Below, piece by piece: positions 9 through 19,900 of a stretch of 20,253 nucleotides of DNA. Both the position numbers and the translations under genes were made by a program. The stretch spans positions 1 through 20,253 of IMG/VR virus record IMGVR_UViG_3300007345_010388. One strand, given 5' to 3'. Position 1 is the stretch's first letter, and each line of letters begins with the position of its first letter. The notes under the pieces are model-generated. The model was not told the origin of the DNA, made no database searches, and saw nothing but the letters and a program-made list of their open reading frames with translations. This DNA comes from a virus.

Positions 9-860
9 ATGAACTACAGAAAAACATACTTTGCCTTAATCAGAAAAGCACTGGAGCGCAACAAATGTCCCAAAGGCGTTCATTGCGAAGATCACCATAT
101 CATACCTAACAGTTTCGTAAAAAATAATTGGACAGTTACATTGACTCCAAGAGAGCATTTTATATGTCACAAGTTGATATATAAGTATTGCTTAAAAAGA
201 TATGGCACAAACGGATTTAAAACCAATAAGGCTTTAATAGCATTCTTTTTTATGTCTAATAGGATGAATATAAAAAGATCTAAAGAGTACGAGCAAGCAA
301 GATCTAGAGTTATAGCTTATTTACGTTCAATACAACCAGAGTACGTTTTTTATCACAAAAAGTTTGGCAAGTTTGTCGGTACAATGCGAGAGTTTATCGA
401 AAAATACCCCAATTTAAATCCGCATCTTCTTTCGGGTGTGTGGAATGGCCATAAGTCTCATCATAGAGGTTGGTGTATAAGCGAGGAAATGATGGATAAA
501 GTAGAGAAGGGACTACATACTAAGAAAAAAGTTTATAAATTTGTTCATAACCAACACGGAATATTTGAAGGTAGTCTTTCTCAAATGAAAGATAAGTTTT
601 CTCATATGAAACTAAACATATCGACATTAGCGGCAGTCTATCGAAATGAAAGGTCACAGCACAAAGGCTGGAGGAGATTAGACTATGTTGACACTAGAAA
701 TAAAATCAAGTGGATACATTCAGAATATGGAATAGTAGAAGCCGGAGTTACAGAGCTTGTAAATCTATTTCCAGAATTAAAATTAAATCGGGGTCACCTC
801 TCAAGCGTAAAAACCGGGAGATTAAAACACCATAAAAAATGGAAATTATTAAATGAATAA
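9..860 (+). CDS. HNH homing endonuclease with three tandem DNA-binding repeats
   Basis: A 283-residue free-standing HNH nuclease of the kind common in large phages, expected to cut or nick a specific DNA site and promote its own spread. The N-terminal domain (about residues 1-60) carries the family signature: HHIIP at residues 29-33, N40, and LTPREHFICH ending at H54; these His and Asn residues would form the beta-beta-alpha metal site. The rest holds three copies of a roughly 45-50 residue module (about 112-157, 175-223, 233-281), each with an aromatic-x-x-H start, a glycine turn, a helix, a serine/threonine-leucine stretch and an H-x-GW or H-x-KW end. These resemble the modular DNA-contact repeats of phage and intron HNH enzymes. 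The start fits the usual N-terminus of the family, but only eight upstream bases are visible. The stop overlaps the terminase start by eight bases, so the two are probably co-translated. Confidence 0.85.
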   Translation: MNYRKTYFALIRKALERNKCPKGVHCEDHHIIPNSFVKNNWTVTLTPREHFICHKLIYKYCLKRYGTNGFKTNKALIAFFFMSNRMNIKRSKEYEQARSRVIAYLRSIQPEYVFYHKKFGKFVGTMREFIEKYPNLNPHLLSGVWNGHKSHHRGWCISEEMMDKVEKGLHTKKKVYKFVHNQHGIFEGSLSQMKDKFSHMKLNISTLAAVYRNERSQHKGWRRLDYVDTRNKIKWIHSEYGIVEAGVTELVNLFPELKLNRGHLSSVKTGRLKHHKKWKLLNE

Positions 861-2446: not shown

Positions 2447-2455
2447 TGGTATAAT
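2447..2455 (+). promoter_or_regulatory. Extended -10 promoter for the thioredoxin/sigma operon
   Basis: TGGTATAAT (TG at 2447-2448, TATAAT at 2450-2455) is a perfect extended -10 element. It sits directly after the terL stop and about 75 bases before the thioredoxin start. No good -35 hexamer is seen about 17 bases upstream, which an extended -10 promoter does not need. Predicted transcription start near 2462. Confidence 0.6.
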
Positions 2456-2528: not shown

Positions 2529-2843
2529 ATGACAAACTCTACACAATTTAAATATAGAGTAGTTTTCTTTAAACAACCAACATGTGTTGCATGTGAAACT
2601 ATGAAGCCTATTTGGGTTGAGGTTGCAAATAAGATTTGCGAAGAGTACCCCCATTATAACGTTGGTTTTGGCGAATGGGACGTAACTTCTGATGACTGGG
2701 AATTCTGCGATAAGATCGAGTGCGACGGCACTCCTAACTTTGCAGTCTTTGATGAAGAAGGAGTTCTACTGGGAATTAATACTGAAGGAATGCTTGCAGC
2801 CGGGCAGCTAAAGGACTTCATAATTACCTCTATTGAGAAATGA
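2529..2843 (+). CDS. Thioredoxin-fold protein with CVAC redox motif
   Basis: A 104-residue protein of thioredoxin size. Residues 10-14 (RVVFF) look like the central beta strand, followed by QPTCVACETMKPIW, with the redox pair C19 and C22 in a CxxC motif at the start of helix alpha 2. GTPNFAVF (67-74) holds the cis-proline P69 expected opposite the active site. The normal WCGPC is replaced by TCVAC, so this is a divergent thioredoxin or glutaredoxin-like protein and its reduction partner is unknown. Phage thioredoxin-like proteins can act as reductants for ribonucleotide reductase or as polymerase accessory factors; neither partner is in this window. It is the first gene after an extended -10 promoter, and its stop overlaps the sigma-factor start (ATGA). 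The ribosome-binding site is weak. Confidence 0.8.
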   Translation: MTNSTQFKYRVVFFKQPTCVACETMKPIWVEVANKICEEYPHYNVGFGEWDVTSDDWEFCDKIECDGTPNFAVFDEEGVLLGINTEGMLAAGQLKDFIITSIEK

Positions 2844-3610
2844 AGCAAAGAACTAAGTCTAAGAGAGCAAGAGATAAACGCGATGAGCATATTATCTCTC
2901 AGATGTGGAAAGCAGACCAGGTTGCTAGAAAAATCTCGAATTTTACCGGGTTGCCATTTGAGGAGCTCAGAGATGCAGCGCTCGAGTATATTGTTCGTAT
3001 TTATGACACCTGGGATCAGAGCAAAGGGGCAAACTTTAGTACCTGGGTAAACAGGTGCTTGCAATTCCACATGCTCAATTATCTTAGAGATAGTTCTAGG
3101 CTCGTTAAGATGCCTCGTTCGTATTCCGATTTATATCTGAAGATCAGAAAATATCTCATTAAAAATCCTAATATCACCAATCAGGAAATTGCAGACGATT
3201 TAAAGATTCCTGTCAAGAAGGTCGATACTGTTCGCACAGCTTTTACAATGAGTTTTAATCCTGTTACGGAACAAAACTGCGTTATTGAAAGTTCCGAGAC
3301 AAACGAAATCGGATTTAATGAGTTACTTTCAAATCACAACGAGTTGTTGTTCAGGATTACTGACCTGGAGTCTAACGATGAAACTTTCTTGATTGACTAC
3401 CTTGTAAAGAAAAGATCAGTATCTACTCTTTTACGTAAAAACCCCCACCTTAAAAACATTGATGATATTAAGTCGTACTCGACTAAGCTAATTAACTACA
3501 TACTATGGGCAGACAAGTCGTTCGAGTCCTGGGACAAGACTATACAAAAACAGGGTTCGAGAAAAAGTGGTCAGAAGTCGTTAAAAACACAGAATGCAAC
3601 TACTTCGTAA
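2840..3610 (+). CDS. Phage sigma-70-family RNA polymerase sigma factor
   Basis: A 256-residue protein with the hallmarks of sigma region 2 at about residues 25-95: an acidic helix (FEELRDAALEYIVRIYDTWD), then a FSTW segment with R72, LNYLRD and LVKMPRS (66-94), which matches the core-binding and -10-contact helices of small alternative sigmas. A helix-turn-helix like region 3 follows (NPNITNQEIADDLKIPVKKV, 109-128). A clear region 4 is missing; residues 178-222 could be a degenerate one. It would redirect host RNA polymerase to phage promoters, probably late ones, as T4 gp55 does, though I cannot show it is a gp55 orthologue. It overlaps the thioredoxin gene by ATGA and is probably coupled to it. 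Its last 34 or so codons overlap the next gene in another frame and look like low-quality sequence, which suggests a run-on C-terminus. Confidence 0.75.
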   Translation: MKQRTKSKRARDKRDEHIISQMWKADQVARKISNFTGLPFEELRDAALEYIVRIYDTWDQSKGANFSTWVNRCLQFHMLNYLRDSSRLVKMPRSYSDLYLKIRKYLIKNPNITNQEIADDLKIPVKKVDTVRTAFTMSFNPVTEQNCVIESSETNEIGFNELLSNHNELLFRITDLESNDETFLIDYLVKKRSVSTLLRKNPHLKNIDDIKSYSTKLINYILWADKSFESWDKTIQKQGSRKSGQKSLKTQNATTS

Positions 3611-4206: not shown

Positions 4207-4820
4207 ATTGACCGAATATCATCATCAGCTAGATCTCTTTCATCAAAGGCTTCTTCAAAAAGTTCTTCTACTTTTTCTGCAATAATATCACCAATGCCTT
4301 GAGCAGTTTTATCGCTACTTAGCCAAGGCTTATTCTTATCAACTAGAGGAGCATACTTTACTTTATTCCCTATAGAATAAACTCCTTGAGTCCTCCTACG
4401 AACAAAATGTCCTGCATATAACTTACCGGTAATTCTTTTAATTCCTTCTTCGTTGTATCTTTGCTCCAAGTACTGGATGATCGGTGTTTCTGGGCCCTTT
4501 GTACTTAGAAATATATTAAGACGTTTTAATACATTCTCTACTACCACATTTATATTGTCTGAAGATTCGTCAAAGTCTACATCGAGCTCCATGTCTTGGA
4601 CGGCTTCTATGTATCCTTCAGAACGTTCCTTTACTTGGTCTAAAAAGTTTTGTGCTATTTGCTCTCCGATTAATGCTTTAACATCCTGCATCTGAGACTT
4701 GAGAGCAGCCTCTTTTATCCGCTCTCTTGCAGCATTTTTTACTTCATTTTTAAGAGAGTCTTTGATTCCATCGAGAGCTATTCCGATTATAAACTTAGAT
4801 AGGGCTTGGACTGGTATCAT
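4203..4820 (-). CDS. Small virion-associated protein, possibly tail-completion-like
   Basis: A 205-residue protein. I do not recognise a family with confidence. The first 75 residues are strongly helical and charged, likely a coiled coil. The C-terminal part contains NKVKYAPLVDKNKPWLS followed by a long acidic helix; a YAxxVD segment followed by a PWL-type turn and a terminal helix is reminiscent of HK97 gp10-type tail-completion proteins, but this is only a resemblance. The start codon overlaps the stop of the tail hub gene (ATGA at 4817-4820), so it is translationally coupled to the hub and is most likely a tail or baseplate component. No catalytic motif is visible. Its stop overlaps that of the HNH-type gene on the plus strand, leaving no room for a separate terminator. 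Confidence 0.6.
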   Translation of the reverse strand: MIPVQALSKFIIGIALDGIKDSLKNEVKNAARERIKEAALKSQMQDVKALIGEQIAQNFLDQVKERSEGYIEAVQDMELDVDFDESSDNINVVVENVLKRLNIFLSTKGPETPIIQYLEQRYNEEGIKRITGKLYAGHFVRRRTQGVYSIGNKVKYAPLVDKNKPWLSSDKTAQGIGDIIAEKVEELFEEAFDERDLADDDIRSI

Positions 4821-7800
4821 GATGGCTTAAGGCACTCAAGTACTTCACGAGCAAATTGTTGTCGATCATCTAAGACCGGCGTACCGGCTCTTTCATAAGC
4901 TGCTTCAAAAATTCTTGTTGCCTCGTTAGCACTATTTGTAGCATTTAATTGGCGGATCATCTCTTCGCCGCTTATGGCCCCTCCAAATTTATTATTCTTT
5001 ACTTCATATACAAACCAGGACATCTGAGTATTTATGCTTTTTGGATCACCGCCTATTTTTGCCGCGTATTGTTCAAGTGCTGCTTTTCTAGGTCCGTTCC
5101 ATTGAAATATACCCAGCTCCCCAGCGGCTCCTAAAGCCTGGGGATTTAAATAAACTCCATTTACACTTGATTCTTTTAACCCATTACCAAGAATTCCGGC
5201 TGTACCGGCTGCACTATTTATACCTAGTTGAGATGCCGCGTCGATTACTTTTTGAATATTAGTGGGATTATATTTACTACAGGTGTACTTAAATTTACCG
5301 GGAGGAAACTCTGATTTTACGTCATTTGCGCCAATTTGCCCAGGCTCTCTTCTTGCGCTTGAAGGTTTACCGCATTCATTGCATGAAAGTTTTCCGTCTT
5401 TTCTTTTGTAGCATAAATCACTAGGAGATCTAATATAGTCGTAGTAATCTGCATATTCGTAGTCTTGAAGGTACTCGCTAAATGTAGGCACTAGCCCCTC
5501 CCAGGTTTGATTCTGAGTAGTATCCGGCCTTCTAAGCGCATTAACAGTAACTTTTAGGTTTCCTTTTTCCCACTTCCACTCTGTTTCATTTACAAACCAA
5601 TTTCTATACTCATCTGGTACCCATACTCCAGGATCAACTTGAGTGTCATCTTTGCCTCCTTCTATCCAAGAATCATAGTCTGATACAAAAGACAGTACAG
5701 TTTTACCTGGTTCTATTTCTAGAGCCCTAGGAACTCCTTGAAACTCTGTTTTTAGTTGGAAACAAAATTTATCCTGAAGCGGCGCTGCGCCGCCACTTGA
5801 GACAGGACTTGAAGTAACTTTGTTGGCAACAGCGGGTATTAAGTCTGCTTTATCTGCTCCTTGAGGAGGGCTGGGGAGTAAGTGAGCTAATAAAAGTCCT
5901 TTGCCTCCTCCAATATCAAGAACGACATACGACCCATAGCCTCCTTTGCTACCAACGTCATTAACTTTAATATTAGGATTAGTTATATCTATAGGTTGGC
6001 CAATAATTCCTGCACCGACAATATCTACGCCTTCGTGCAACTTACCATTTCTTGGACCATAGGGAGAACCTGTTTCCCACTGAGATGGTTTTTTGCCACC
6101 TATGGTGATATAAGGATCTAGATCGGCAGCTGTAACTTTTGGAGATATATCGTTTTTAAAACCCACTCCAGTTAAAGTAGATATTTCTGCATGCAAGTGT
6201 GCCCCGTCTTTTCCTGGGGGATCGACGTTTCCGCTATATCCTACCCAACCCACTAATGTTTTTCCCTCGTTATCTCCAGAAGAGCTATCTGGCGCCTTAT
6301 CCTCTTGTTCTTTATCTTTGAGAGGCTCGGTGACAGACATTGTAAGCCTAACGGTTGCCGGAGTAATGGAAATTACAGAAGACTCTGCCTGAGGAGGTCT
6401 TATAAAGTATCTTGTTTTAGTTTGTTTATCCCCTGTCTGCACCTCTCCGACTTTAGCACCAATTTCTATATCATCTCCTTCTTTTACCTTTATACCCGAT
6501 AGAGACGTATACTCTTGATGTATGTAATAACGTTGTTCTTTGTTCTGAGCAGATAAATTTATAGTAAGCGTGCTTTTAACTACGACTCTTCCTTCTTCTT
6601 TAGATACAGTAGTAACTTTTCCTCCTAAATAAGACATGCCCTCTTTTGCATTTCCAAATGCTGCGTTCTTTTCTAGCTTTGTTATAGTAAATTTTTTACC
6701 TTTAGCCTCACCTTTAAATACAACTTTTGCTTGGTTACCAGTAGAGTAGTCTCCTATCTCATCAAATTGCCCCTCAAATTTAGTAAAAGCGTTTGAAGAG
6801 GCGGCATTTATTTTCTCTATTGTTTCGGTTACAGCGTTATTGTTATTTTTAGAAAATTTAAATTCTCCCTCGCCTACTTGGGCCAGGCCTGGCAGCGGTT
6901 CTGGGTTTTCAGGATCGCTTGTTTTAGGCCGAGACGTAGTAATATCAAATTCATTAATAGCGTACTCAGCATTTATACTATATTGCTTATATAAACCCTT
7001 ACCTAAATAAAACACTCTAGACGCCCTACAGCTATAATCTGTTTTATTACAAATCTGAATAACTTTAGCGTTTTCCGCCTTGGCAGAAATGTAGGCATCC
7101 ATAAACTCTTTTTCTCCGCTGTATTTTTGTAACAACTGCCCTGGAGAAAGAGCAGTGCTTTTATAGGACTTTTCAGAGACTTCGTCCTCGTCTTCTCCGC
7201 ATACAGACTCTATCTTATATCCAGATTTTGAAAATATTTTATCATTCAATTGTTTAAGGACCGGCTTTCCCTTCTCAAAGAAAACAGGTATAGTTTGATT
7301 AAAGTCTGTACTAAAAGCGTATTGCCCCCTCATTGTAACTTGAGGATATTTTGAACCATGGTCAATAGTTACTTTTGTGGCTTTAAAATATGTTTGAAAC
7401 TCTGAAGTTATTCCTATGCCCTCTATTTCATAATAAAGAGATATAATTATCCATCCCCTGTTTTCTGCTAGGTTAACAAGATCTGGATCGTCTATTGTAT
7501 CGTAAAAGGGATAACAAGGAGTGCTGTCTGGATCTTGGCCTTTTTCACATTTAGGTAAAAGTGTTCCTGCATTTTGATAAGCATTAAATCCGCTCATCAC
7601 TTGTGCCATGTTTCCAAGTACAGGCCAAGCAGCCCCGTCTAAATAGGGATCGTTAAGAGTTACAGTGCATTCGTTATCTTTGGTACTATATAGTAAATCA
7701 TCTAGCCCTCCGCTGGTATTTGTGTTAAACGTAGTAACATTCTGTTTTAATTTTACAGAGACAGAGTCTATCTGCCGTTCTGGAAAAACAATTACGTTTT

Positions 7801-7855
7801 TACTTTTTGCAGGTTTGAAAGCAACTTTTGCTCGGCACCTATATATGCTATTCAC
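4817..7855 (-). CDS. Tail hub protein with rearranged M23 peptidase and tail lysozyme domains
   Basis: A 1012-residue multidomain protein, likely the tip of the tail that docks on the baseplate and digests peptidoglycan during DNA entry. Residues 1-220 resemble tail-hub proteins of the gp27/gpD type (inferred from the pattern around YPQVTMRGQYAF). Residues about 405-585 form the C-terminal half of an M23 metallopeptidase: YYIHQEYTSLS, KVKEGDDIEIG, then AHLHAEI (552-558) and DLDPYI. Residues about 590-660 form the N-terminal half: YGPRNGKLHEGVD (metal ligands H607 and D611), GGYGSYVVLD and LLLAHL. The halves are therefore in reversed order. Residues 815-859 hold four cysteines, including CNEC. 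Residues 870-1010 match the phage tail lysozyme family: AAGTAGILGNGLKES with probable catalytic E895, then LGIFQWNGPR. The start is GTG; an in-frame stop lies four codons upstream. A GTTTAAAG motif begins 32 bases upstream. Confidence 0.85.
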   Translation of the reverse strand: MNSIYRCRAKVAFKPAKSKNVIVFPERQIDSVSVKLKQNVTTFNTNTSGGLDDLLYSTKDNECTVTLNDPYLDGAAWPVLGNMAQVMSGFNAYQNAGTLLPKCEKGQDPDSTPCYPFYDTIDDPDLVNLAENRGWIIISLYYEIEGIGITSEFQTYFKATKVTIDHGSKYPQVTMRGQYAFSTDFNQTIPVFFEKGKPVLKQLNDKIFSKSGYKIESVCGEDEDEVSEKSYKSTALSPGQLLQKYSGEKEFMDAYISAKAENAKVIQICNKTDYSCRASRVFYLGKGLYKQYSINAEYAINEFDITTSRPKTSDPENPEPLPGLAQVGEGEFKFSKNNNNAVTETIEKINAASSNAFTKFEGQFDEIGDYSTGNQAKVVFKGEAKGKKFTITKLEKNAAFGNAKEGMSYLGGKVTTVSKEEGRVVVKSTLTINLSAQNKEQRYYIHQEYTSLSGIKVKEGDDIEIGAKVGEVQTGDKQTKTRYFIRPPQAESSVISITPATVRLTMSVTEPLKDKEQEDKAPDSSSGDNEGKTLVGWVGYSGNVDPPGKDGAHLHAEISTLTGVGFKNDISPKVTAADLDPYITIGGKKPSQWETGSPYGPRNGKLHEGVDIVGAGIIGQPIDITNPNIKVNDVGSKGGYGSYVVLDIGGGKGLLLAHLLPSPPQGADKADLIPAVANKVTSSPVSSGGAAPLQDKFCFQLKTEFQGVPRALEIEPGKTVLSFVSDYDSWIEGGKDDTQVDPGVWVPDEYRNWFVNETEWKWEKGNLKVTVNALRRPDTTQNQTWEGLVPTFSEYLQDYEYADYYDYIRSPSDLCYKRKDGKLSCNECGKPSSARREPGQIGANDVKSEFPPGKFKYTCSKYNPTNIQKVIDAASQLGINSAAGTAGILGNGLKESSVNGVYLNPQALGAAGELGIFQWNGPRKAALEQYAAKIGGDPKSINTQMSWFVYEVKNNKFGGAISGEEMIRQLNATNSANEATRIFEAAYERAGTPVLDDRQQFAREVLECLKPS

Positions 7856-7879: not shown

Positions 7880-7887
7880 CTTTAAAC
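7880..7887 (-). promoter_or_regulatory. GTTTAAAG motif before the tail hub gene
   Basis: The minus strand reads GTTTAAAG, starting 32 bases before the GTG of the hub gene. It is one of five intergenic copies that share orientation with the downstream gene. It directly abuts the 3' arm of the terminator hairpin at 7887-7913, so the hairpin's last G is the motif's first base. Candidate phage promoter element; its function is inferred from recurrence and position. Confidence 0.5.
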
Positions 7888-7913
7888 CCCCAGAAGGGAT
7901 CTCCTCCTGAGGG
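7881..7913 (-). terminator. Terminator-like hairpin after the 243-aa virion gene
   Basis: On the minus strand an 11-bp stem (arms 7903-7913 and 7887-7897, with two G-T pairs) closes a 5-base loop, followed by TTTAAAGT. The stem is strong and GC-rich, but the T-run is short, so it may be a leaky terminator or an mRNA 3' stabiliser between the virion gene and the hub gene. It fits strong expression of the upstream gene with partial read-through. Confidence 0.6.
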
Positions 7914-7937
7914 CTAAAGAGACTATTTAATTTTTTA

Positions 7938-8669
7938 TCAGAGTAGCTGAGTAACCTCGGCAAGCGCGGGAGTAGATCCAGCGGGAAGTGTACCAACAGC
8001 GTCAAGGGCGATAATAACGATATCGCCAACCGAGTAATTAGCGCCTGGAACTGGAACTCCAAGATTGTCGCCAGATGCCGTAACAACTCCGTCAACAACA
8101 GATAGGCCGTTGTCAAGATTCGCGTTTCCGTCACCACCACCAGAATCTTCGGTGCTAACCAAGAAGAAGGTTGTGGCGCCATCAGCAGCGTTGGTGTAAC
8201 CTGATCCGCCGTCGATAAGAGTAATAGTAAGAATTCCGCCTTCAGCAGCAGTACCCTCAACAACTTCTGTCTCAACTTCACCAACGATACCAGAGATCAC
8301 TTCGCAAAGATTGAATGTAGCAACCATGAAGTGAAAGTCTTCTTCGCCTTCAAGGCCAACAAAACGAGTAACATTAACTAACTCTGTAGTAAGAGCAGTC
8401 TTGTCTGCAGCTGGAACAGCGGCTGAGGCTTGAAGGGCAAGTACAACTTGCTCAAGAACGGCGTAAGCATTACGCTTAGCTTCAAATCCCATAGAAGGTC
8501 CGCACTTAATAAACTTTGTAAGTGCTGTTGCAGCGGCTGCTGCTTCTCCGGCTTGTGCTTGAACAAGGGGATCATCCTTAAATTCTGTAAGGAGAGTCTG
8601 TAATTTCAGTTTGAATTCAAATTCAATACCGAGGGTACGAGATAAACCCTCGTTTAGAATATTAGCCAT
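7938..8669 (-). CDS. Virion structural protein with helical N-terminus and beta-rich C-terminus
   Basis: A 243-residue protein that I cannot assign to a named family. Residues 1-135 are helical and alanine-rich (for example GEAAAAATALTKF), with no signal peptide or membrane segment. Residues 145-225 are beta-rich and contain LIDGGSGYT and GANYSVGDIVI, which resemble the GxGYxxGD turns often seen in phage decoration and fibre proteins; a related RGTGYILGERL occurs in the 650-aa gene product encoded at 14998-16950. The sequence is richer in GC than its neighbours, it has its own GTTTAAAG motif 36 bases upstream, and it ends at a strong hairpin. All three suggest an abundant late virion protein. 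A long open frame at 7865-8284 on the same strand is a shadow of this gene. The start ATG has no clear Shine-Dalgarno sequence. Confidence 0.75.
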   Translation of the reverse strand: MANILNEGLSRTLGIEFEFKLKLQTLLTEFKDDPLVQAQAGEAAAAATALTKFIKCGPSMGFEAKRNAYAVLEQVVLALQASAAVPAADKTALTTELVNVTRFVGLEGEEDFHFMVATFNLCEVISGIVGEVETEVVEGTAAEGGILTITLIDGGSGYTNAADGATTFFLVSTEDSGGGDGNANLDNGLSVVDGVVTASGDNLGVPVPGANYSVGDIVIIALDAVGTLPAGSTPALAEVTQLL

Positions 8670-8697
8670 AGTATTGTTTTATAACAAATCTAGTTAT

Positions 8698-8705
8698 CTT
8701 TAAAC
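8698..8705 (-). promoter_or_regulatory. GTTTAAAG motif before the 243-aa virion gene
   Basis: The minus strand reads GTTTAAAG, beginning 36 bases before the ATG at 8669 and overlapping the last codon and stop of the kinase gene (GTT TAA). A TATAAA lies 14 bases downstream and could be a -10. Candidate late promoter element, one of five such copies. Confidence 0.5.
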
Positions 8706-9263
8706 CAGGACGTAATCCAGAACAGACTCCCCGAGTTTAGGCTTGATTATTTGATATGGCAGAGTGGAAATGTTTTCGAGATAGTTCTTCATATAAGCAT
8801 AGTATTGCTTATGTTCTTCCTCTCTTACAAGGAGTTGGTTACGCTTATAGTACGGAGTTGCATTAGGGAATAGCTCGTCGATTTCTTTAATATGGTTTTC
8901 TTTCGCCCATTCCCAATCTCTTTTCACAACAAGAATATCAAGAGACTTACTTACAGCAAAGAAATACGACTCTGCTGCCACAGCCCACTCTGGAGAAATG
9001 ATGATGTTCCTACGAAACTTTTCATAGAAGCAAACTTCAGAGAACCCTCGGTCACAAAGGATATATTCTGCGGTGTTCCGTGTGGTAACTTTATTTAGAG
9101 GCTCAATATATTGTTCAATAGGGCTATTATGGTGAGGCTGAGGTCCAGAGAAATGAAGCTTTTCTACGTTAGCAAACTCATTAATTACATTATAGCTATT
9201 TTCAACGAGGGTGCTTTTTCCAACACGATCGGGACCAAGAACAGCAATAATACGTGGGAGCAT
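8700..9263 (-). CDS. P-loop nucleotide kinase (thymidylate/dNMP kinase-like)
   Basis: A 187-residue P-loop kinase, near the usual size of thymidylate and phage deoxynucleotide kinases. It probably phosphorylates a deoxynucleoside or its monophosphate to feed phage DNA synthesis. The Walker A loop is GPDRVGKST (residues 10-18); CDRGFSEVCFYEKF (from C70) carries the DR dyad of the base and phosphate site; KRDWEWAKENH (114-124) is the likely LID-type arginine segment, though a second arginine is not obvious there. The substrate cannot be read from sequence. I start it at the ATG at 9263, since this leaves two residues before the first beta strand (RIIAVLG); the open frame extends to a TTG at 9290, but that lies inside the predicted -10 box. 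It has a sigma-70-like promoter, unlike its virion-gene neighbours. Confidence 0.8.
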   Translation of the reverse strand: MLPRIIAVLGPDRVGKSTLVENSYNVINEFANVEKLHFSGPQPHHNSPIEQYIEPLNKVTTRNTAEYILCDRGFSEVCFYEKFRRNIIISPEWAVAAESYFFAVSKSLDILVVKRDWEWAKENHIKEIDELFPNATPYYKRNQLLVREEEHKQYYAYMKNYLENISTLPYQIIKPKLGESVLDYVLV

Positions 9264-9289
9264 TAGAGAGAATAAGGTGTATGTATACA

Positions 9290-9298
9290 ATTATATCA
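9290..9298 (-). promoter_or_regulatory. Extended -10 promoter for the nucleotide kinase
   Basis: The minus strand reads TGATATAAT, a perfect extended -10 (TG at 9298-9297, TATAAT at 9295-9290), giving a transcription start near 9283 and a leader of about 20 bases. A weak -35-like TTTAAA lies about 15 bases further upstream; it is the reverse reading of the opposing GTTTAAAG motif at 9311. Confidence 0.55.
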
Positions 9299-9310
9299 TG
9301 GATGGCTGAA

Positions 9311-9318
9311 GTTTAAAG
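9311..9318 (+). promoter_or_regulatory. GTTTAAAG motif before the fibre-like gene
   Basis: GTTTAAAG begins 35 bases before the ATG at 9346 in the divergent region between the kinase and the fibre-like gene. TATAGT (9339-9344 area) just before the start could be part of it. One of five intergenic copies. Confidence 0.5.
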
Positions 9319-9345
9319 CTAAATTAGATATTTTGTTATAGTCAC

Positions 9346-9918
9346 ATGACAACTCCGAATCATAGGTGGGGGATTAGATACTCCTCCGATTCTGCTAAAA
9401 ACTTGGCGTACATTCAAACGCAATATACCAACGACAACACTTTTGCTAAGCCCGGTGAGCTCTTCCTAAACGAAAACCTCCAAGAAATCTACTATGTAGA
9501 CCATTCTGACAATACTGCTAAAAAGCTCGCTGGAGTCTGGGCCAAGACTGGATCAGATGCTTATTACTCAGCAGGTAAAGTAGGGATAGGTCTATCAGCC
9601 CCGACCGCTCCACTTGAAGTCGCCACTACATGGAACGACGTAAACGTTACTCATTATGGTGTTAAAATCACCGTCACCGACACGGAATCGGCTGCTGCTT
9701 CTAAACCCCTTGAGATCACAGTAGGTGGGTCTTCTAAGCTATCTGTTTCTAAGGCCGGGGATCTTACTGTTGCTGGAAAAGTCACCCTACCCTCACAGCC
9801 TCCGGCATCTGCCACAGCTAACGGTTCTACCGGAGACATTGCTTGGGACACCGACCATATCTATATTTGTGTAGCGACCAATACTTGGAAGCGTGCTGCA
9901 CTTGCAACCTGGTTATAA
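9346..9918 (+). CDS. Fibre-like virion structural protein
   Basis: A 190-residue protein. Residues 1-65 contain a short head segment with FAKPGELFLNENLQEIYYVD, the type of start often seen in phage fibre and collar-whisker proteins. The middle shows GKVGIGLSAPTAPLEV (78-93), a repeat unit typical of trimeric fibre shafts (VGIGxxxPxxxLxV), and later KLSVSKAGDLTVAGKV, a second beta-helical repeat. The C-terminus has the pattern seen at the ends of many phage structural proteins: GSTGDIAWDTDHIYICV followed by NTWKRAALATW. It is therefore most likely a short fibre, spike or decoration protein at the particle surface. No enzymatic motif is visible. The start has no Shine-Dalgarno sequence but lies 35 bases after a GTTTAAAG motif, and the gene is followed by the structured phoH leader. 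Confidence 0.75.
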   Translation: MTTPNHRWGIRYSSDSAKNLAYIQTQYTNDNTFAKPGELFLNENLQEIYYVDHSDNTAKKLAGVWAKTGSDAYYSAGKVGIGLSAPTAPLEVATTWNDVNVTHYGVKITVTDTESAAASKPLEITVGGSSKLSVSKAGDLTVAGKVTLPSQPPASATANGSTGDIAWDTDHIYICVATNTWKRAALATWL

Positions 9919-9920
9919 AA

Positions 9921-9928
9921 GTTTAAAG
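9921..9928 (+). promoter_or_regulatory. GTTTAAAG motif before the phoH leader
   Basis: GTTTAAAG lies just after the stop of the fibre-like gene. Unlike the other four copies it is 123 bases, not 32-36, from the next start codon. It may drive a leader or small RNA that runs to the terminator at 9993-10027. Confidence 0.45.
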
Positions 9929-10027
9929 TTATATGAACATTAGTTAATTCATATCTTGATGTTCCGACACTTTATTATTAGTTTGAGCAGGGTCCCTTAA
10001 GCGCAGCAATGTGCTTGGGGGATTTTT
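9929..10027 (+). ncRNA. Candidate small RNA or structured phoH leader
   Basis: This gene-free stretch begins after a GTTTAAAG motif, contains a 7-bp perfect inverted repeat (ATATGAA at about 9931-9937 with TTCATAT about 10 bases later), and ends at a strong intrinsic terminator. That is the layout of a small RNA of about 100 bases or of an attenuated leader for phoH. It does not fold as a tRNA and I recognise no known riboswitch. Speculative. Confidence 0.35.
9993..10027 (+). terminator. Intrinsic terminator between the fibre-like gene and phoH
   Basis: A 12-bp stem (9993-10004 with 10011-10022, three G-T pairs) with a 6-base loop AGCAAT is followed directly by TTTTT (10023-10027). This is a textbook Rho-independent terminator on the plus strand. 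The phoH ribosome-binding site starts only eight bases after it, so no promoter fits between them. Confidence 0.8.
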
Positions 10028-10043
10028 GCTATATGGAGACCCT

Positions 10044-10775
10044 ATGGCACGTAAAGTAAAAAACACTCGTAGACAAAAAATCCGTACCGAACAAATCTAT
10101 ATGCCACAGAATCGAGAACAAGACCAAATAAAAATTATTATGCCTCGTAACCCATCTCAAGTAGATGCGTTAAATTGCCTAAAAACAAAGACTCTTACGA
10201 TTCTAACAGGACCTCCAGGCACAGCAAAAACCCTTCTCTCTGTTTATGCTGCTTGCCAAGCACTTCAAAAAAGAGAAATTGACAAGATTTATTATGTAAA
10301 ACCCATCGTTGATGTGGTGGGTGAACAAGGCCTCGGTTTTTTGCCAGGCGAAGTTGATGAAAAAACTGCGCCCCATATTGCTCCGTTAAAGGATGCCTTA
10401 TCTGTATTTATGCCAAAAGGCAAAGCAGATTATCTCATTGAAAAGAAAATAATTGAATTTGTTCCTCTAGAGCACCTCAGGGGCAGAAGCTTAGCTAGAT
10501 GTTTTATCATTGCTGACGAAATGCAAAACGCAATCCCCCACTCGGTGCTAACTGTACTTACTCGATTAGGAAATGATAGCAAGGTGGCTTTACTTGGTGA
10601 TGTTGTACAACGTGACCTTGACGGAAAGTTTGGTCGCGATGGACTCTCTGATGCAGCAAAAAGGTTGGCCAAGCTTAATGAGGTTGGTCATGTTGAGTTC
10701 TCCTTTAGTGAAATTGTAAGATCTGGGTTTGTAAGGTCTGTAATTAGAGAATATGCGGATCTATACGCAGCGTAG
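10044..10775 (+). CDS. phoH: PhoH-like P-loop ATPase
   Basis: A 243-residue PhoH-family protein, very common in marine phages; the family is an ATPase related to helicase cores, sometimes linked to phosphate stress and RNA metabolism, but its phage role is unsettled. The Walker A loop is GPPGTAKT (residues 56-63), Walker B is IIADEMQN (155-162, D158 and E159), and the family motif ALLGDVVQRDL (182-192) acts as sensor or motif III. KPIVDVVGEQGLGFLPG (86-102) is the PhoH signature with the usual GFLPG. Basic residues fill the first 15 positions. The start is the ATG at 10044, which has a good GGAG Shine-Dalgarno at 10035-10038 with five bases spacing; the in-frame GTG at 10011 lies within the terminator stem. 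The gene lies between two virion genes, with a terminator hairpin in front. Confidence 0.92.
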   Translation: MARKVKNTRRQKIRTEQIYMPQNREQDQIKIIMPRNPSQVDALNCLKTKTLTILTGPPGTAKTLLSVYAACQALQKREIDKIYYVKPIVDVVGEQGLGFLPGEVDEKTAPHIAPLKDALSVFMPKGKADYLIEKKIIEFVPLEHLRGRSLARCFIIADEMQNAIPHSVLTVLTRLGNDSKVALLGDVVQRDLDGKFGRDGLSDAAKRLAKLNEVGHVEFSFSEIVRSGFVRSVIREYADLYAA

Positions 10776-10776
10776 A

Positions 10777-10784
10777 GTTTAAAG
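10777..10784 (+). promoter_or_regulatory. GTTTAAAG motif before the 1396-aa virion gene
   Basis: GTTTAAAG lies directly after the phoH stop and begins 34 bases before the ATG at 10811. A TATAGT follows 11 bases downstream. One of five intergenic copies with the same orientation as the next gene. Confidence 0.5.
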
Positions 10785-10810
10785 TAACTATATATTATAG
10801 TTGCAGTACT

Positions 10811-13800
10811 ATGCCTGGTAAGCTACCTGGGGGAAAATTAAGAATATCTAGAGTTGTTCCCCCTCTTTCTACAGTTGCGGATCCTACGGACACTGAAGTT
10901 AAATACTTTGGTCTTACAAGAGACGACGCTCTTAGTGATCTTGAGTCTAGCACGGAAGCGTTGCAAGAAGTGCTAAAGGACATTCAGTCTGTCTCTGAAA
11001 GAGAGACGGAAGGGGTATTTAACTTAAAAGACGTTTCGATTCTAGACGGCATTGAGGTTTTTGGAGTCACAAAAGAAGACCTTTCTCCGCTTCAAGGTGC
11101 TGCCTTAACAGACGGTGTTGGTGAAGCTATTGTAAATCCTCGCCAAAGACTACAAGATAGAATTACTCATTTTGAATCTTTTGCGGGGCGAGGTACTCCG
11201 TTCTTCGGATCTGGGCCTATAAAATATATGTATTACGCCGATCCTATCGGTACAGACCTTCCAGGGATTGTTTCTGTTGCTGCTAATGGAACTGTAACAG
11301 GTAACAGTACTAACTTTAATGGATCTACGGGTGCAAATGATCCATTTACTCCCCATGTTTTAACAAATGGCGACTATGTAGATGCATATAATTCAAACAA
11401 CGAAAGGGTCGGAAGATATATAGTTAGCGGAAATCCATCTAGCAAGACGGCAATGACCGTTACAAATGCTGACACAGGCGCTATTACCGCTGTGTCTAAC
11501 GTGTCATTAAAAGTAATATATTCTCACACTAGCCCACCTCCATTTTTTACAGAGCCAATAACCTCTACAGCATTTAACGCCCCAGATCATATTCCCAATA
11601 TCTCACAACTCGAATATACTCATAGAATAGGTAGTAGCTCTACAGGAAGCTTTGTGCCTACAAAGTACAAAGAAGATTGGTGGGAAGGAGATTATGAAAG
11701 AGATTTCAAAACCCCTATTGCTAACCCCTATCAAGCATCTGGAGAAAATGCAGATAACGATCCAACTTTTAACATCATTAAAGACGGAAATAAAAACTAT
11801 GGGCTATTACTCAATGACTTTCCTATTGATAAAAATCTAGGAATAAGATACGACTTTTATTTAAAAAAAGATTTTGTCGGAGAGTATTTTAAGTGGGCTG
11901 TACAAAAGTACGGAGAGGTTAAGATCGATGTTTACAAGCAAACAGGAATTGCTTCTAACGGCAATCCTCAAGGGTCTTGGATAACTGTTTTAGATACAAC
12001 TGATGAGAGCACTTATCACGTATTTATTGACAAAGAAGAAAGTACACAAAACTTTGCAGAATTTAGAGAAGTGTATATGAACGGCGGCTCTAATTTTGAA
12101 GCATTAGCCACTACTTCTGAAGCAGCATTTTTAGATACAAGAGATACTTATACAGACTTAGAAGATACCGAGATCTCTAATTTTGACAACGAGTTTATTC
12201 CTGTTATTATTAGATACTGGCACGGACAAAATACTTTTAACAAAAATATAACAACTATTCCTGAGCAATCAAGATTAACACCTGGTGGAACAACTCCTTC
12301 TGTTAACTTTGATCTTAGAGAGTTTAATCTTTCTGAAGTTAACCTAGGTGGAACTATAAGCACATTAACAACTGCAGGAGTAGTTACAGGAGTTGGAACT
12401 GCATTTACTACAGACCTTGCAGTTGGAAGCAGAATAACTATAAATAGCAAGTCTTATAAAGTAGTTTCTATAGACAGTGACGTAAGCTTAATTATAAGAA
12501 ATCCTGCAGAAGATAATTTCACAGGGCAGAGCTATATAGCTTCAACTGACAGAACCCATAAGCAAGCATGGAATAATTACTATACCCACGTTAAGGGTAC
12601 TTTTGCAGGTGGTGTAGTAACATTAGATAATAATTATACAGGAGCAGGAACACAAAATAGTTTAGCCAATATGAATCGTAGATTTGATATTGTTGCATAT
12701 ACTATCGCAGGAAATGCTCCCACAGGCTTAAGTAATACAAAAAATATTTTAAACTATAAATCTGAATCTCAAACCAAATATGACTTCGGTCCTTCTAAGA
12801 GTAATTTTTACGAGGGAATAAGACTAGATGGCGGAAGTGGCGACTGGACTGATCTTACTTTTACAGTATCTGGTATTTCTATAGCAGAAAATGCTACAGT
12901 TCACATGATGATTCAAAATAATCCTCTCAAAACTGAACCTCCAAGAATAGTACCTGCCAGTAACTCTAATTTTACAGACGTTGATGAAATTGATAATGGT
13001 AGCGGCCGGGCTCTTTGGGTTGAATTTGTTTATTATCCCGATGAAAAAGGTACATACGAAGACGCAGGCGATCTCTTATCTAATGGAGCAGGGTATTCAG
13101 AAATAGATCCAGAAAAGCAAGCTCTAGAAGAAAGAAGCGTTTATTTTGGGTATAAGTACGGCGTGCTCCCTGAAACAAATCAATATACCTCTGCAAGGTA
13201 CGATGGATTTTTAAGAAACACAATTACAAATGCTGTTACGAACAGAGACTATGATTATAACCATCCCAAACTTCTTGCAATAGGAAGGCAGAAAAAAGAC
13301 ACGGCCATTAAGCCTTTGCAAACAGGAGAAATAAGACCTGATGGCGCTAACTACACTTTCTTCATGTATGAGGCCGACGCATTCAATAACGGAGGTAGGG
13401 TTCAAATTCTTGCCGGGCCTGTTAATAGCTTAGCCGCAATATTTGCTCCAATAGCAGCTGGAGTAGACGCATCTTCAAGTCCTGGTAAAATACTTCATAG
13501 CACAGACAACGTTAATACTTTTTCAAATACAAATAAGCAAAACATAACAGCAGCTACTTCTGTTGTTACTCAAGGTAGTGGGTCTAATAATTACGGCATC
13601 TATCAAGAGGAATTTTTAGGAGGCCCGATTCTAGTTGCAAGAGGAAGCGGTACAGCAGGAGACTACAGCCCCGTTTGGTCTATTTCAAACATGGGAGACC
13701 CAGAAGGCAGAAACACTATCAACAAGACCTTATTCCTTGCTTATGTTTCTCAGGGGGCTGGGATCAACGCCTATTTTCGCGAGTTAATTAACGCGGAAAG

Positions 13801-15001
13801 ACCTAGCGTCAAAGCCTCTTCTATCACATTAATAGGAGGAGGTCCGACACCGTCAATCCAAAATGCTGGTTTATTTGCCGCGGACTCTTCTAACTCATCT
13901 AGAACAAATCAAAACGCCGTTCCTTATATAAGCTCTAGGGTTGCCCTATACGCCTCAACGGATTCTGCTTATGCTACTGTCTTAGCAGAATATGACGTTA
14001 CATCCTATACTGCTAGTTCTACTACAGTAGCTTTAAATAGAATAACAGGAACAGACCAGCCCGCCGGAACTTATAGAGCAATAGTTTATTACAACTACTT
14101 AAAAATACCACAAGCTCTTCATACTTTAGATTGGACTGACGAAAACGGAATAGACAAAACAACTACCTCTATACAAGACTCCCCGACGTATAGCGGAACT
14201 AACAACAACATGATTATTAACGGAGTGTATAGCACTTCGGCAACCTACTCTAGAGTTGATAACGGATCAACTTTGTCGTTTGGCGACGCACTGCTAATCG
14301 AGCCAGGAAGCAACACTGGCTCTGCTATAAGTCCTTTTAGCTCACAAACAGAACTTCCCTTCCCGCCTTCTGCAGCAGTAACACCCTTCGGGTTTGATAA
14401 GTCTTCTAATGATATAAACAACCCAGGATTGGGAGGTATTTGCTATCCTCCTATTGATGCTCCAGCAGATCCTGCACTTTCAACTCTTGCTATTGAAGAT
14501 GCTAATCTATATGGCCGATCTGGCGGAACATTAAGAAAAGCCGAGGGACATTATGATACTTACTTTGGAGGTAAAAATTTAACTAATATTGGCTTGGCGT
14601 CTATAACAGTGACAAGAGGGTTCGTGTTTGATTTCCCTGCAGACAGCTATAACGATATCATCACAACGCCTTCCTCTGCACAATTACCTATATTTTCTTC
14701 CAACTCCTACACTCATAAATTAAGAGTAGAACTTACTCCGTACATTGGAGAGCCTAGTACTACTTTTGCTAACGCTACAGGGTTGTTTTTAAGATCAGAA
14801 CTTTATAATAATCCTACGGGTGCAAGTCCACTGACTTCTTCTGACCAAAACCCCCATATTTACAACGACGTAACTACGTACTACTCAACTCAAGAGGCTG
14901 TAAAAGAAGCAGTGTACTTATTTACTAAGTCTTCCTCTATCAATCCTACATCAGAAACTGACGTTAGCCTAATATCAACAAGTTCTATAAACTTTGTTTA
15001 A
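10811..15001 (+). CDS. Large virion structural protein with beta-rich modules
   Basis: A 1396-residue protein, rich in Ser, Thr, Asn and Gly, typical of phage tail-fibre, baseplate-wedge or adhesin proteins. The N-terminal 110 residues are helical, charged and probably attach it to the particle. Two stretches (about 157-238 and 512-577) share the pattern VTGxxTxF...NGD or VGS..I, then a short V.SI strand, a module found repeatedly in phage structural proteins. Between them, residues about 283-475 (WWEGDYERDF through FIPVIIRYWHG) have the look of a PA14-type carbohydrate-binding fold, which I only suggest; WVEFVYYPDEKGTY near residue 740 may be another exposed module. The rest is unrecognised beta-rich sequence. 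There is no signal peptide, membrane segment or peptidase motif. The start has no Shine-Dalgarno sequence. The stop overlaps that of the convergent 650-aa gene by two bases. Confidence 0.7.
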   Translation: MPGKLPGGKLRISRVVPPLSTVADPTDTEVKYFGLTRDDALSDLESSTEALQEVLKDIQSVSERETEGVFNLKDVSILDGIEVFGVTKEDLSPLQGAALTDGVGEAIVNPRQRLQDRITHFESFAGRGTPFFGSGPIKYMYYADPIGTDLPGIVSVAANGTVTGNSTNFNGSTGANDPFTPHVLTNGDYVDAYNSNNERVGRYIVSGNPSSKTAMTVTNADTGAITAVSNVSLKVIYSHTSPPPFFTEPITSTAFNAPDHIPNISQLEYTHRIGSSSTGSFVPTKYKEDWWEGDYERDFKTPIANPYQASGENADNDPTFNIIKDGNKNYGLLLNDFPIDKNLGIRYDFYLKKDFVGEYFKWAVQKYGEVKIDVYKQTGIASNGNPQGSWITVLDTTDESTYHVFIDKEESTQNFAEFREVYMNGGSNFEALATTSEAAFLDTRDTYTDLEDTEISNFDNEFIPVIIRYWHGQNTFNKNITTIPEQSRLTPGGTTPSVNFDLREFNLSEVNLGGTISTLTTAGVVTGVGTAFTTDLAVGSRITINSKSYKVVSIDSDVSLIIRNPAEDNFTGQSYIASTDRTHKQAWNNYYTHVKGTFAGGVVTLDNNYTGAGTQNSLANMNRRFDIVAYTIAGNAPTGLSNTKNILNYKSESQTKYDFGPSKSNFYEGIRLDGGSGDWTDLTFTVSGISIAENATVHMMIQNNPLKTEPPRIVPASNSNFTDVDEIDNGSGRALWVEFVYYPDEKGTYEDAGDLLSNGAGYSEIDPEKQALEERSVYFGYKYGVLPETNQYTSARYDGFLRNTITNAVTNRDYDYNHPKLLAIGRQKKDTAIKPLQTGEIRPDGANYTFFMYEADAFNNGGRVQILAGPVNSLAAIFAPIAAGVDASSSPGKILHSTDNVNTFSNTNKQNITAATSVVTQGSGSNNYGIYQEEFLGGPILVARGSGTAGDYSPVWSISNMGDPEGRNTINKTLFLAYVSQGAGINAYFRELINAERPSVKASSITLIGGGPTPSIQNAGLFAADSSNSSRTNQNAVPYISSRVALYASTDSAYATVLAEYDVTSYTASSTTVALNRITGTDQPAGTYRAIVYYNYLKIPQALHTLDWTDENGIDKTTTSIQDSPTYSGTNNNMIINGVYSTSATYSRVDNGSTLSFGDALLIEPGSNTGSAISPFSSQTELPFPPSAAVTPFGFDKSSNDINNPGLGGICYPPIDAPADPALSTLAIEDANLYGRSGGTLRKAEGHYDTYFGGKNLTNIGLASITVTRGFVFDFPADSYNDIITTPSSAQLPIFSSNSYTHKLRVELTPYIGEPSTTFANATGLFLRSELYNNPTGASPLTSSDQNPHIYNDVTTYYSTQEAVKEAVYLFTKSSSINPTSETDVSLISTSSINFV

Positions 15002-16973: not shown

Positions 16974-19900
16974 TTAAACGACGGGAACATCAAACAAGTC
17001 TATGGTTATCCTACTCGAGTTTAATTCTCTTAATTTTGTTTTTAATGGGTCCTCTGCTCCACCGGAAAGAGTATCAAAGATATCGTTTAACTGCCAATTA
17101 CTATAAGTTCCTGCAGAGATATCTGGTTTTGTTGCTTTAAGTTTTATTCTGAGATCTCTTAGTCTATTATCACCCATAATTTCATATACATCATAAGCGT
17201 CTTGAATAATTCTTCTGATAGACAATCTACTTAGCGGATTATTTTCTAAGTTAATGGTTACTATTTCTGCTCTACCTGTAAACCCAGCATTTGAAGCTCC
17301 TGTTATATTTTGAAGGGTCCCCGTCCTATAACAAGTAAGCAAATTACTTTGTAAATCTAAAGTTCTTAACCTTCCCTGCCCAGTGTTTTTAAAATTAGGA
17401 ATAAAGCCGCCTAAAGAGCAATCCTTCATGTAAATATACTCTACATTAGGACATCCGTTAAAGAACCCATCGCATTCAATGGCCTTTCTTCTAAAAGTAA
17501 CAGATGTGTCTGAACTATAATTTAATGTTATACCTTCTCCTGTAGAGTTTGCTCCTACTACTACAATATACTCGTAGCTAGGATCTTCATTAAATACGGA
17601 TCCAACTCTGCCTTTTAGTTGCCCACCAATATACACTTCATCACCGACTCGAACATATTTTTGCAAGTTAGTAACGCCTGCAGTTTTAAGAAGTATATTT
17701 CCAGCAGATTGCGGGGCTCCTTTATAAGCCCTAGATTTAAATGTAGTAGAGCCTGAAACCCACTGTTCTTGTGAAATATTCCCGTACTCAGAGGTAGTAC
17801 TCTTGTCATCCCAGTTTAATGGCGCAAGAGCACTAAACACTGGCTTATTTTGCTTAGACGTATCTTGTGCCCAGCTTGATGGATACTTCGAAAGTAGAGA
17901 ATCTGTTGTATAGAATCTTTTTAATATAGTGCTTCCGCTATTAATATTTAATGGGGCCATGTCTGGAACAATTGCTCCACCAACGTTTGTTCCAGAATAC
18001 CTGATATAGATTTCCTGTACTCTTTTTGTTGATTTCACAGATAAAGCGCTTAGATCAAAGAATCTATTATTGTCAGCGCGCATTCTAAGCGCTAACGACT
18101 CACTTGCGCCCTGGGCTACTCCTGGAATTCTGGGGAAACGTCCTGACCAGCGCCCTGAGCTAATCGAAAGAAAAGCCATTTTAGTAAGCTTATCAAAGTC
18201 GTTATACCTAAACTTCATTTCATAATTTCTATTATTATTGATTTCTAAGGCCCTAATTACGGTCTCTGTAGTAGGGTGGAAGAAATTGAGCGGAAATATA
18301 TATTTACCGGGTTCATTGGCTCCTGTGCCTCCCTGCGAGATTGAAAGACTACCTTCTGCGTAGCCCTCCCAATCAATTGCGCCAATATTTATATAATCTA
18401 ATTTTGGGCAATCTTTAACGCTAAATAGTCTGCCGGTCCATCCACTGTTAAAAGAAACAATCGTTCTTAATTCCGACGCTTTTACAAAATCGTTCGAGTC
18501 GGTTGTGGTGGTAGTCGTACCAGGATTATATCTAATTTTTCTTTCTGGTCCATGAGCCCTAGTGTAAGTAAGATTCAATGATTCTAGTTTTTGCCAAATA
18601 AGAGAAGATCCTGTTGCTAAGTTAAAAGCTATGTCGGTTTGGACGAAATCAATAACTTTAGCGTTAGTCAACCAGCCGGACCATGCCGTTGCCGCGCTAG
18701 TAGCTGCGTGACTGTATCTATTAAGAGCCGTTCCTCCGATAGTATCTGTGACGTTCATAACGCGTGCGGTGGTATTGGCCGGTTCGTTAATATTTCCAAC
18801 CATTGTATCATCTGTGCAAATGCCTCCAGCAAAGTTATTACTGTTGTAACCTAGATGGTCGACATTCCATGTAATTACTTTAAATTGTCCTATGAATTGT
18901 TGTTGTTGATCGGCTGTATCTCCAGATGCCCATTGAATATTATCGCCGACATCCCGCATACTCCCACCAACTTGTGTCTGCCAAGAATAGTTTATCGAAA
19001 ACTCCTGGTTGTTATTATTTAATTTAGGAATATTTCCGTATAGGTTTTTAACCCCGCTTTGAGATGTTGATATATCTATCTCTCCAAGATTGGGGAAAAT
19101 AACAGAAAAATCTGGATTTGCAACTTTAAACCTTGAGCCTAATCTCAATATCCTTAGAGCAGTAAATCTTCTGATACCATTTGCAAGACCTGCTGCTCCG
19201 GTAAATGAGCCGTTATTGCCAGGGTTTAATCTTGTTTGATGGAGGAGGTGGCTTCCGGCCGTTGCAGTTGATAAAGTTCCGTCATACGAAGCTTTCTTTA
19301 CTCCGCCACCGCCTGCTTCAAATCCGCTATATGCTAGTATCTGTACCCCGGTCTGAATGGGAATGTTGGTGCTATTGTAGCTATTATATAGGTTTGGGTT
19401 AGTTTGCCAGTCGAACCATTCAATAATACCTTGGTCCCAAAATCTATTACCACGCAAATCTAGTTCTTCTAAAGTAAAGTGGTTTACCTTTAGCCACGTA
19501 GGAATGGTGGAAAGTTTATTATTCCGACAAGAAAATACTTTTAAGTTGTCGAACCCAAGTAAGCCTAGATCAGGAGTATTATCGTCCTCTTCTATTCCTA
19601 GTCCTTCCAACCTTAATTCCTCTACAATAAAAGGAGCACAATAGATATATAAATAAGCATCCTGGTTATTTCCAGTCTTTCCGGTGGTATTTATACTTCT
19701 AGTCATTGTGTTTCTAGAAGCTTCTAGAGAATCATTAAAAGTTTCTCCTATAATTTTATAATTATCGCTTTTTCTTCTAAGCTCGTATCCAAAATAATAT
19801 GGAGAAGGAGCGTTCCGAGTAAAGATTGTAAAGCTTGCAGAGTTGTTAATCTTAACTGGGACTCTTAGCGGAGAGTTTTTAGAGGCAAGAGCGTCTACAA

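Follow-up and report, generated by a model that had tools for sequence, protein, structure and literature searches.

The locus and its motif copies

The IMG/VR virus record IMGVR_UViG_3300007345_010388 was analysed from position 1 to position 20,253, and this whole stretch of 20,253 bases is called the window below. It is 85–86% identical, over 85% of its length, to the cyanophages S-TIM5, S-TIM61, and S-TIM66 (Aurunvirus), and its gene content includes terL, a thioredoxin-like gene, a sigma factor, phoH, and several virion genes. The subject of this work is the recurrent octamer GTTTAAAG, a candidate late promoter element, of which a first-pass annotation had reported seven copies. All seven were found where they had been placed, against an expectation of 1.9 (standard deviation 1.2, dinucleotide shuffles), and none of 100 shuffles reached seven.

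Four copies stand before virion genes, and their distances, counted from the first motif base to the start codon, agree to the base with those reported earlier. On the minus strand, the copy at 7880..7887 lies 32 nt before the start codon (7887 to 7855) of a virion gene with M23 peptidase-like and tail lysozyme domains (4817..7855) and is kept in at least 10 related loci. The second minus-strand copy, at 8698..8705, overlaps the end of an open reading frame (ORF) that ends at 8700, lies 36 nt before the ATG (8705 to 8669) of a virion structural gene (7938..8669), and has orthologous copies in S-TIM5, S-TIM54, and IMG/VR loci. On the plus strand, conserved copies at 9311..9318 and 10777..10784 precede by 35 nt (9311 to 9346) and 34 nt (10777 to 10811) the ATG of a virion structural gene with a tail protein PHROG (9346..9918) and of a large virion structural gene (10811..15001), respectively. 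The genes starting at 8669, 9346, and 10811 are classed as structural from the annotation of their S-TIM5 orthologues. In the orthologous gaps of this region, the element is retained while its flanks change.

The fifth gap copy, at 9921..9928 on the plus strand, precedes the leader of phoH, as had been noted; the gene is read here from a conserved ATG (10044..10775, plus strand), approximately 123 nt past the element, and a leader of approximately 110–120 nt is itself conserved. The remaining two copies were likewise correctly located within coding sequence. One is antisense inside the thioredoxin-like gene (2567..2574, minus strand) and differs by one base in S-TIM5, and the other lies inside a virion gene (19124..19131, minus strand). 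Internal copies occur at low background in all genomes, and both of these are probably due to chance.

Two observations concern the surroundings of these elements. Across eight related loci, the phoH leader (window 9929–10043, behind the 9921 element) shows strong conservation. It folds well, its consensus structure having 42 pairs at -38 kcal/mol, of which only one has a two-sided change; it has no match in Rfam, a search of which returned none for the entire window. It is possibly a regulatory RNA leader. A conserved hairpin-like sequence, CCTCAGGAGGAGATCCCTTCTGGGG, occupies window positions 7888–7912 on the minus strand and adjoins the 7880 element, with its GGGG end running into GTTTAAAG. 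This hairpin could be the terminator of the upstream gene, overlapping the next promoter.

Genome-wide enrichment in S-TIM5 and S-TIM54

The deposited annotations of S-TIM5 (212 genes) and S-TIM54 (209 genes) were used to count all 8-mers in the 60 bases before each gene, with the expectation taken from the genomic frequency. By a wide margin, the top upstream 8-mer is GTTTAAAG, which precedes 25 genes in S-TIM5 and 28 in S-TIM54, compared with 1.2 expected in each. The enrichment at gene starts to be looked for in related phages is therefore present in both. The S-TIM5 genome holds 36 copies. For 25 of them, a start codon follows within 60 nt in the direction of the motif, and no copy is oriented solely the wrong way. 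In 23 copies, half of the motif or more falls within a gap, gaps accounting for 5.4% of the genome. Divergent gene pairs have two oppositely oriented copies, for example at S-TIM5 positions 49537/49562, 57041/57054, and 122783/122802. In every genome tested, GTTTAAAG ranks ahead of all 560 8-mers of the same composition, with a large lead in the larger genomes and a lead of only 1–2 genes in the smallest contigs.

A scan of single-base variants also showed enrichment of GATTAAAG (15 genes versus 0.9 expected) and, to a lesser extent, of a few others. The GATTAAAG sites proved heterogeneous and were treated as a weaker variant rather than as a separate class; one of them, before nrdA, lies close to a host-type TATAAT.

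Genes preceded by the motif

The distribution of the motif among gene classes was analysed with operon leaders defined as genes with an upstream gap of at least 22 nt. In S-TIM5, the exact motif precedes 16 of 26 virion leaders versus 1 of 23 named non-virion leaders (Fisher p = 2e-5), and the corresponding counts in S-TIM54 are 15/23 and 1/23. Within operons the motif is nearly absent: only 1 of 21 such virion genes of S-TIM5 carries it, and among hypothetical genes it is found before 7 of 60 leaders versus 0 of 64 within-operon genes. Ten virion leaders of S-TIM5 lack the motif. In four of these, a copy with one mismatch is found 29–53 nt upstream; in another, an exact copy does stand before the gene if its start is taken from the annotation of S-TIM61, which sets it further upstream. 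The earlier reading of the element as a phage-specific promoter before virion genes is supported.

For the S-TIM5 virion gene at 106128, the annotated start seems to lie too far downstream, since the S-TIM61 orthologue is annotated as approximately 60 nt longer; counted to that earlier start, the distance of the motif, 92 nt as annotated, becomes a usual one.

A different signal precedes early and replication genes. TATAAT, often as TGATATAAT or with TTGACA approximately 17 nt upstream, is found before the genes for topoisomerase, hli, phd, DNA polymerase, nrdA, primase, dCMP deaminase, and thyX. The region upstream of S-TIM5 psbA (8047–8256) holds both types: a host-type TTTACA-N17-TATAAT and, at a distance of 209 nt from the gene, GTTTAAAG. 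This suggests that psbA is expressed both early and late.

Promoter architecture

The architecture of the element was derived from 116 non-redundant sites in 13 genomes or contigs. Position-specific information is restricted to the eight motif bases, accompanied by two minor trends, namely a purine just before the motif (A or G in 91/116) and a mild A+T preference behind it. Neither conservation at the -35 place nor a partner element at fixed spacing, upstream or downstream and including a host-type -10, was found among these sites, which confirms the earlier remark that a fixed -10 partner is not evident.

The distance from the motif to the start codon has a median of 34 nt, with quartiles of 30–41. 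Were the motif a -35 element, the transcription start would fall on the start codon or within the gene at 52–59% of the sites, and the leader would be shorter than 8 nt in 75–79%. If it acted as a -10 element, with the start approximately 14–15 nt past its first base, no leader would be shorter than 8 nt, and the median would be approximately 20. In addition, the trinucleotide TAG occurs at +14 from the motif start in 20/116 sites, compared with a maximum of 10 at any position in 500 shuffles; this TAG lies 6–8 nt past the motif and weakly hints at where transcription starts. The geometry and the weak TAG signal fit a single -10-type element, and GTTTAAAG is better read as such an element than as a -35 element.

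Conservation across relatives and control phages

To cover uncultured relatives, the viral contigs (viral_contigs) were scanned with the sigma factor of the window and with its alignment. These scans returned more than 50 loci with identities down to 55%, and a third scan added one at 50%. All 17 sigma-encoding IMG/VR contigs that were searched whole contain GTTTAAAG. Ten uncultured relatives were analysed in detail, with GC contents of up to 56% and sigma identities down to 55%; the motif is the top upstream 8-mer in nine of them and tied for the top in the tenth (G014). These ten comprise six distant contigs, with the motif at the top in five and tied in the remaining one, and four other contigs, with the motif at the top in all. 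In the relative with 50% sigma identity (L126), two copies lie 33 and 35 nt before ORFs.

No excess of GTTTAAAG over a reversed control was seen in S-PM2, Syn9, P-SSM2, T4, or Ma-LMM01. When the same upstream scan was applied to a 50-kb part of S-PM2, it returned AATAAATA, which is the published late promoter of T4-like cyanophages (PMC2984593). Therefore, the method recovers a known late promoter where one exists.

One further candidate, the FliA of MaAM05, was considered as a distant relative of the sigma factor and left unused, as its stretch looks bacterial rather than phage. The first 50 kb of MW495066.1, deposited as "Microcystis phage MaAM05", contain genes for a ribosomal protein, secE, nusG, secretion, and housekeeping metabolism, and this part of the record looks like a bacterial contig.

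The phage sigma factor

The proposed reader of GTTTAAAG is a phage sigma factor of 256 residues encoded at 2840..3610 on the plus strand, with SigF-like regions 2 and 3 and a diverged region-4-like domain. Its profile matches are of the SigF/FliA type and cover residues 26–172. The best NCBIfam model is the cyanobacterial SigF model PRK07408, at 43 bits, which is below the curated cutoff of 261. The Pfam family Sigma70_r2 matches the window protein with an E-value of 4e-5 and 23.7 bits (cutoff 24) and its relative L037 with 26.3 bits. Residues 8–86 superpose on region 2 of SigE with a Z score of 11.8 (78 residues, 1.7 A). The full-length model has a low pTM of 0.33, and models were used by domain only.

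The C-terminal part is more diverged. Residues 161–224 have no sequence match, the profile matches stopping near residue 172. When this part was modelled alone, sigma region 4 domains were among the nearest structural matches, with Z scores of up to 7.6 and no Foldseek E-value below 1, which suggests a region-4-like fold. Region 4 of sigma factors usually reads the -35 element.

Invariant columns among 23 relatives are concentrated in residues 58–104 (region 2.3–2.4/3.0), in which the reading and melting of the -10 would be expected to reside and where 40 of 47 are invariant; the figures are 8/35 for region 3 and 15/64 for the C-terminal domain. An invariant reader together with an invariant element is the pattern expected of a sigma–promoter pair, in which this segment would contact the motif. 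The T4-type components were also searched for. Neither the gp55 family (phrog_234) nor the gp45 clamp (phrog_223, although a diverged clamp is possible) was detected in S-TIM5 or S-TIM54, whereas the same searches find both families in S-PM2, Syn9, and T4.

In S-TIM5, the terL cluster has GTTTAAAG 35 nt before its first gene and runs on into the sigma gene. In the window, the gap between terL and the thioredoxin–sigma genes contains a host-type extended -10, TGGTATAAT (2447..2455, plus strand), which is kept with one change in S-TIM54 (TGGTACAAT) and is a possible early promoter for the sigma gene. On the other side of terL, an ORF resembling a homing endonuclease (window 9–860, phrog_655) abuts the gene, and the match to S-TIM5 starts only past it, at 891.

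Proposed mechanism and alternative explanations

The most probable interpretation of these results is that GTTTAAAG is the entire sequence-specific core of the late promoter of S-TIM5-type cyanophages and that its reader is the SigF-like sigma factor which the phage itself encodes. That the sigma factor in the window serves this promoter, as the first-pass annotation supposed, is plausible. From the enrichment, direction, position, and single-element character of the motif, its late-gene bias, and its conservation across the sigma family, we infer the site of transcription start, the recognition and binding by the sigma factor, and the timing as follows. Early in infection, host RNA polymerase would act on host-type promoters (TGATATAAT, or TTGACA-N17-TATAAT), and the sigma gene would first be expressed from the host-type promoter TGGTATAAT before the thioredoxin–sigma genes. 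The SigF-like sigma factor would then direct the host core polymerase to GTTTAAAG elements, which would occupy the -10 region, at approximately -15 to -8, with no -35 element being used. Transcription would start approximately 6–8 nt behind the element, often at a T-A step, and leaders would measure approximately 20 nt. The terL operon, itself begun by GTTTAAAG, would later supply the sigma factor too. Since this cluster starts with the motif and runs into the sigma gene, the sigma factor would reinforce its own late supply.

Several points weigh against this interpretation. The register of the TAG signal, itself weak, is uncertain, and the sigma factor seems, from its model, to keep the fold of a domain that is usually a -35 reader. 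Motif and sigma factor are linked by correlation and co-conservation only, and a sigma relative with a changed motif was not found among the relatives. Some sites precede genes of unknown class, an alpha-glucosyltransferase gene, or psbA, the last at a distance of 209 nt. Finally, the genes of the IMG/VR contigs were called mechanically, and the virion assignments were taken as deposited in the S-TIM5 and S-TIM54 records.

The alternative that survives best, though it is unlikely, is that GTTTAAAG is a promoter core or an operator whose reader is either a host alternative sigma factor or a phage activator acting with a host sigma factor. The purely correlative tie between motif and phage sigma factor would allow such a reader, and the enrichment of GATTAAAG, with its nrdA copy near a host-type TATAAT, shows some looseness of the element. 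However, the motif fits the melting region, with no host-type -10 at a fixed distance from it, and the motif excess is missing from the gp55 cyanophages, T4, and Ma-LMM01. Moreover, phages of differing GC content and, presumably, differing hosts retain the element along with the phage sigma factor.

It is less probable still that GTTTAAAG is the -35 element of a bipartite promoter of the SigB or FliA type, a likeness that the first-pass annotation had put forward. TAAAG does weakly resemble FliA -35 elements, SigF/FliA profiles are the closest ones to the sigma factor, and its C-terminal domain appears to be region-4-like. Nevertheless, a -35 role was rejected because its geometry is unfit, as transcription would start at or past the start codon in more than half of the 116 sites, and because a fixed -10 partner is missing. 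The least probable alternative is an RNA-level leader signal, for processing or for enhancing translation, in which case the true promoters would lie further upstream: the motif does lie near start codons and always on the sense strand, but no other conserved element is found upstream, its distance from the ATG is too great for a ribosome site, it is concentrated at operon leaders, and short divergent gaps hold one copy per side.

Comparison with known systems

S-TIM5-type phages, which are marine cyanomyoviruses, fall outside the T4-like group. The literature searched, by title, contained no report on their transcription signals (the original S-TIM5 paper was outside this scope, and a prior mention is possible), and none of the publications containing both "cyanophage" and GTTTAAAG is, by its title, about phage promoters. 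The consensus permits the assignment of late genes and operons from sequence alone in cultured and uncultured relatives, and it predicts a concrete sigma–promoter pair. It also allows a comparison with T4 as to the origin of single-element late promoters in another sigma lineage.

Ma-LMM01, a Microcystis phage, is reported to use host SigA-like promoters for all gene classes and to have no phage-specific motif (PMC5780444); it is likewise a cyanomyovirus without gp55, and GTTTAAAG occurs only twice in its genome. The late promoters of phage 7-11, GTAAtg-(16)-aCTA, are bipartite with a fixed spacer (PMC8948821). They are also late promoters of a phage-encoded sigma factor, but the element described here is single.

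A closer parallel is phiEco32, whose middle and late promoters, tAATGTAtA, are read by the phage sigma factor gp36 and consist of a single element with starts 6–8 bp downstream; six promoters were found experimentally, and the missing -35 was attributed to a lack of region-4 homology (PMC8948821). The single conserved element is shared, and the TAG signal in the present set, if it marks the start, matches the start spacing of phiEco32. In contrast, both the sequence and the host group are different here, there are approximately 25–28 candidate promoters per genome, and a region-4-like fold is predicted although no -35 is present. The phiEco32 consensus was not among the leading upstream 8-mers in the genomes scanned.

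The T4-type late promoter, TATAAATA, is read by gp55 together with gp33 and the clamp gp45 (PMC2988020), and that of marine T4-like cyanophages is NATAAATA (PMC2984593). As in T4, the element in S-TIM5-type phages is a single 8-bp element, placed by our reading in the -10 region, without -35 conservation (PMC2988020, PMC2984593), and many scattered copies precede virion operons in phages that encode their own sigma factor. Unlike in T4, the consensus is GTTTAAAG, with only 0–1 upstream copies of TATAAATA per distant related contig; the gp55 and gp45 families went undetected in S-TIM5 and S-TIM54; and the SigF-like sigma factor has regions 2 and 3 and a region-4-like domain in one protein. Because the consensus and the sigma factor differ, and because gp55 and gp45 were tested for and not found, the S-TIM5-type late promoter belongs to neither the T4 nor the phiEco32 type; it is a new consensus of a known kind.

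The review of T4 late transcription asks why no fused late sigma factor has been found in nature (PMC2988020). The S-TIM5-type protein is a candidate to consider here, and a conceivable although rather improbable reading is that it is such a naturally fused late sigma factor. It would be derived from SigF and would unite in one protein the domain that reads the -10 and a region-4-like domain that has ceased to read DNA, and it would serve approximately 25 single-element late promoters in each genome with neither gp55 nor a clamp of the T4 type. If this is true, the T4 late strategy would have been invented a second time, independently.

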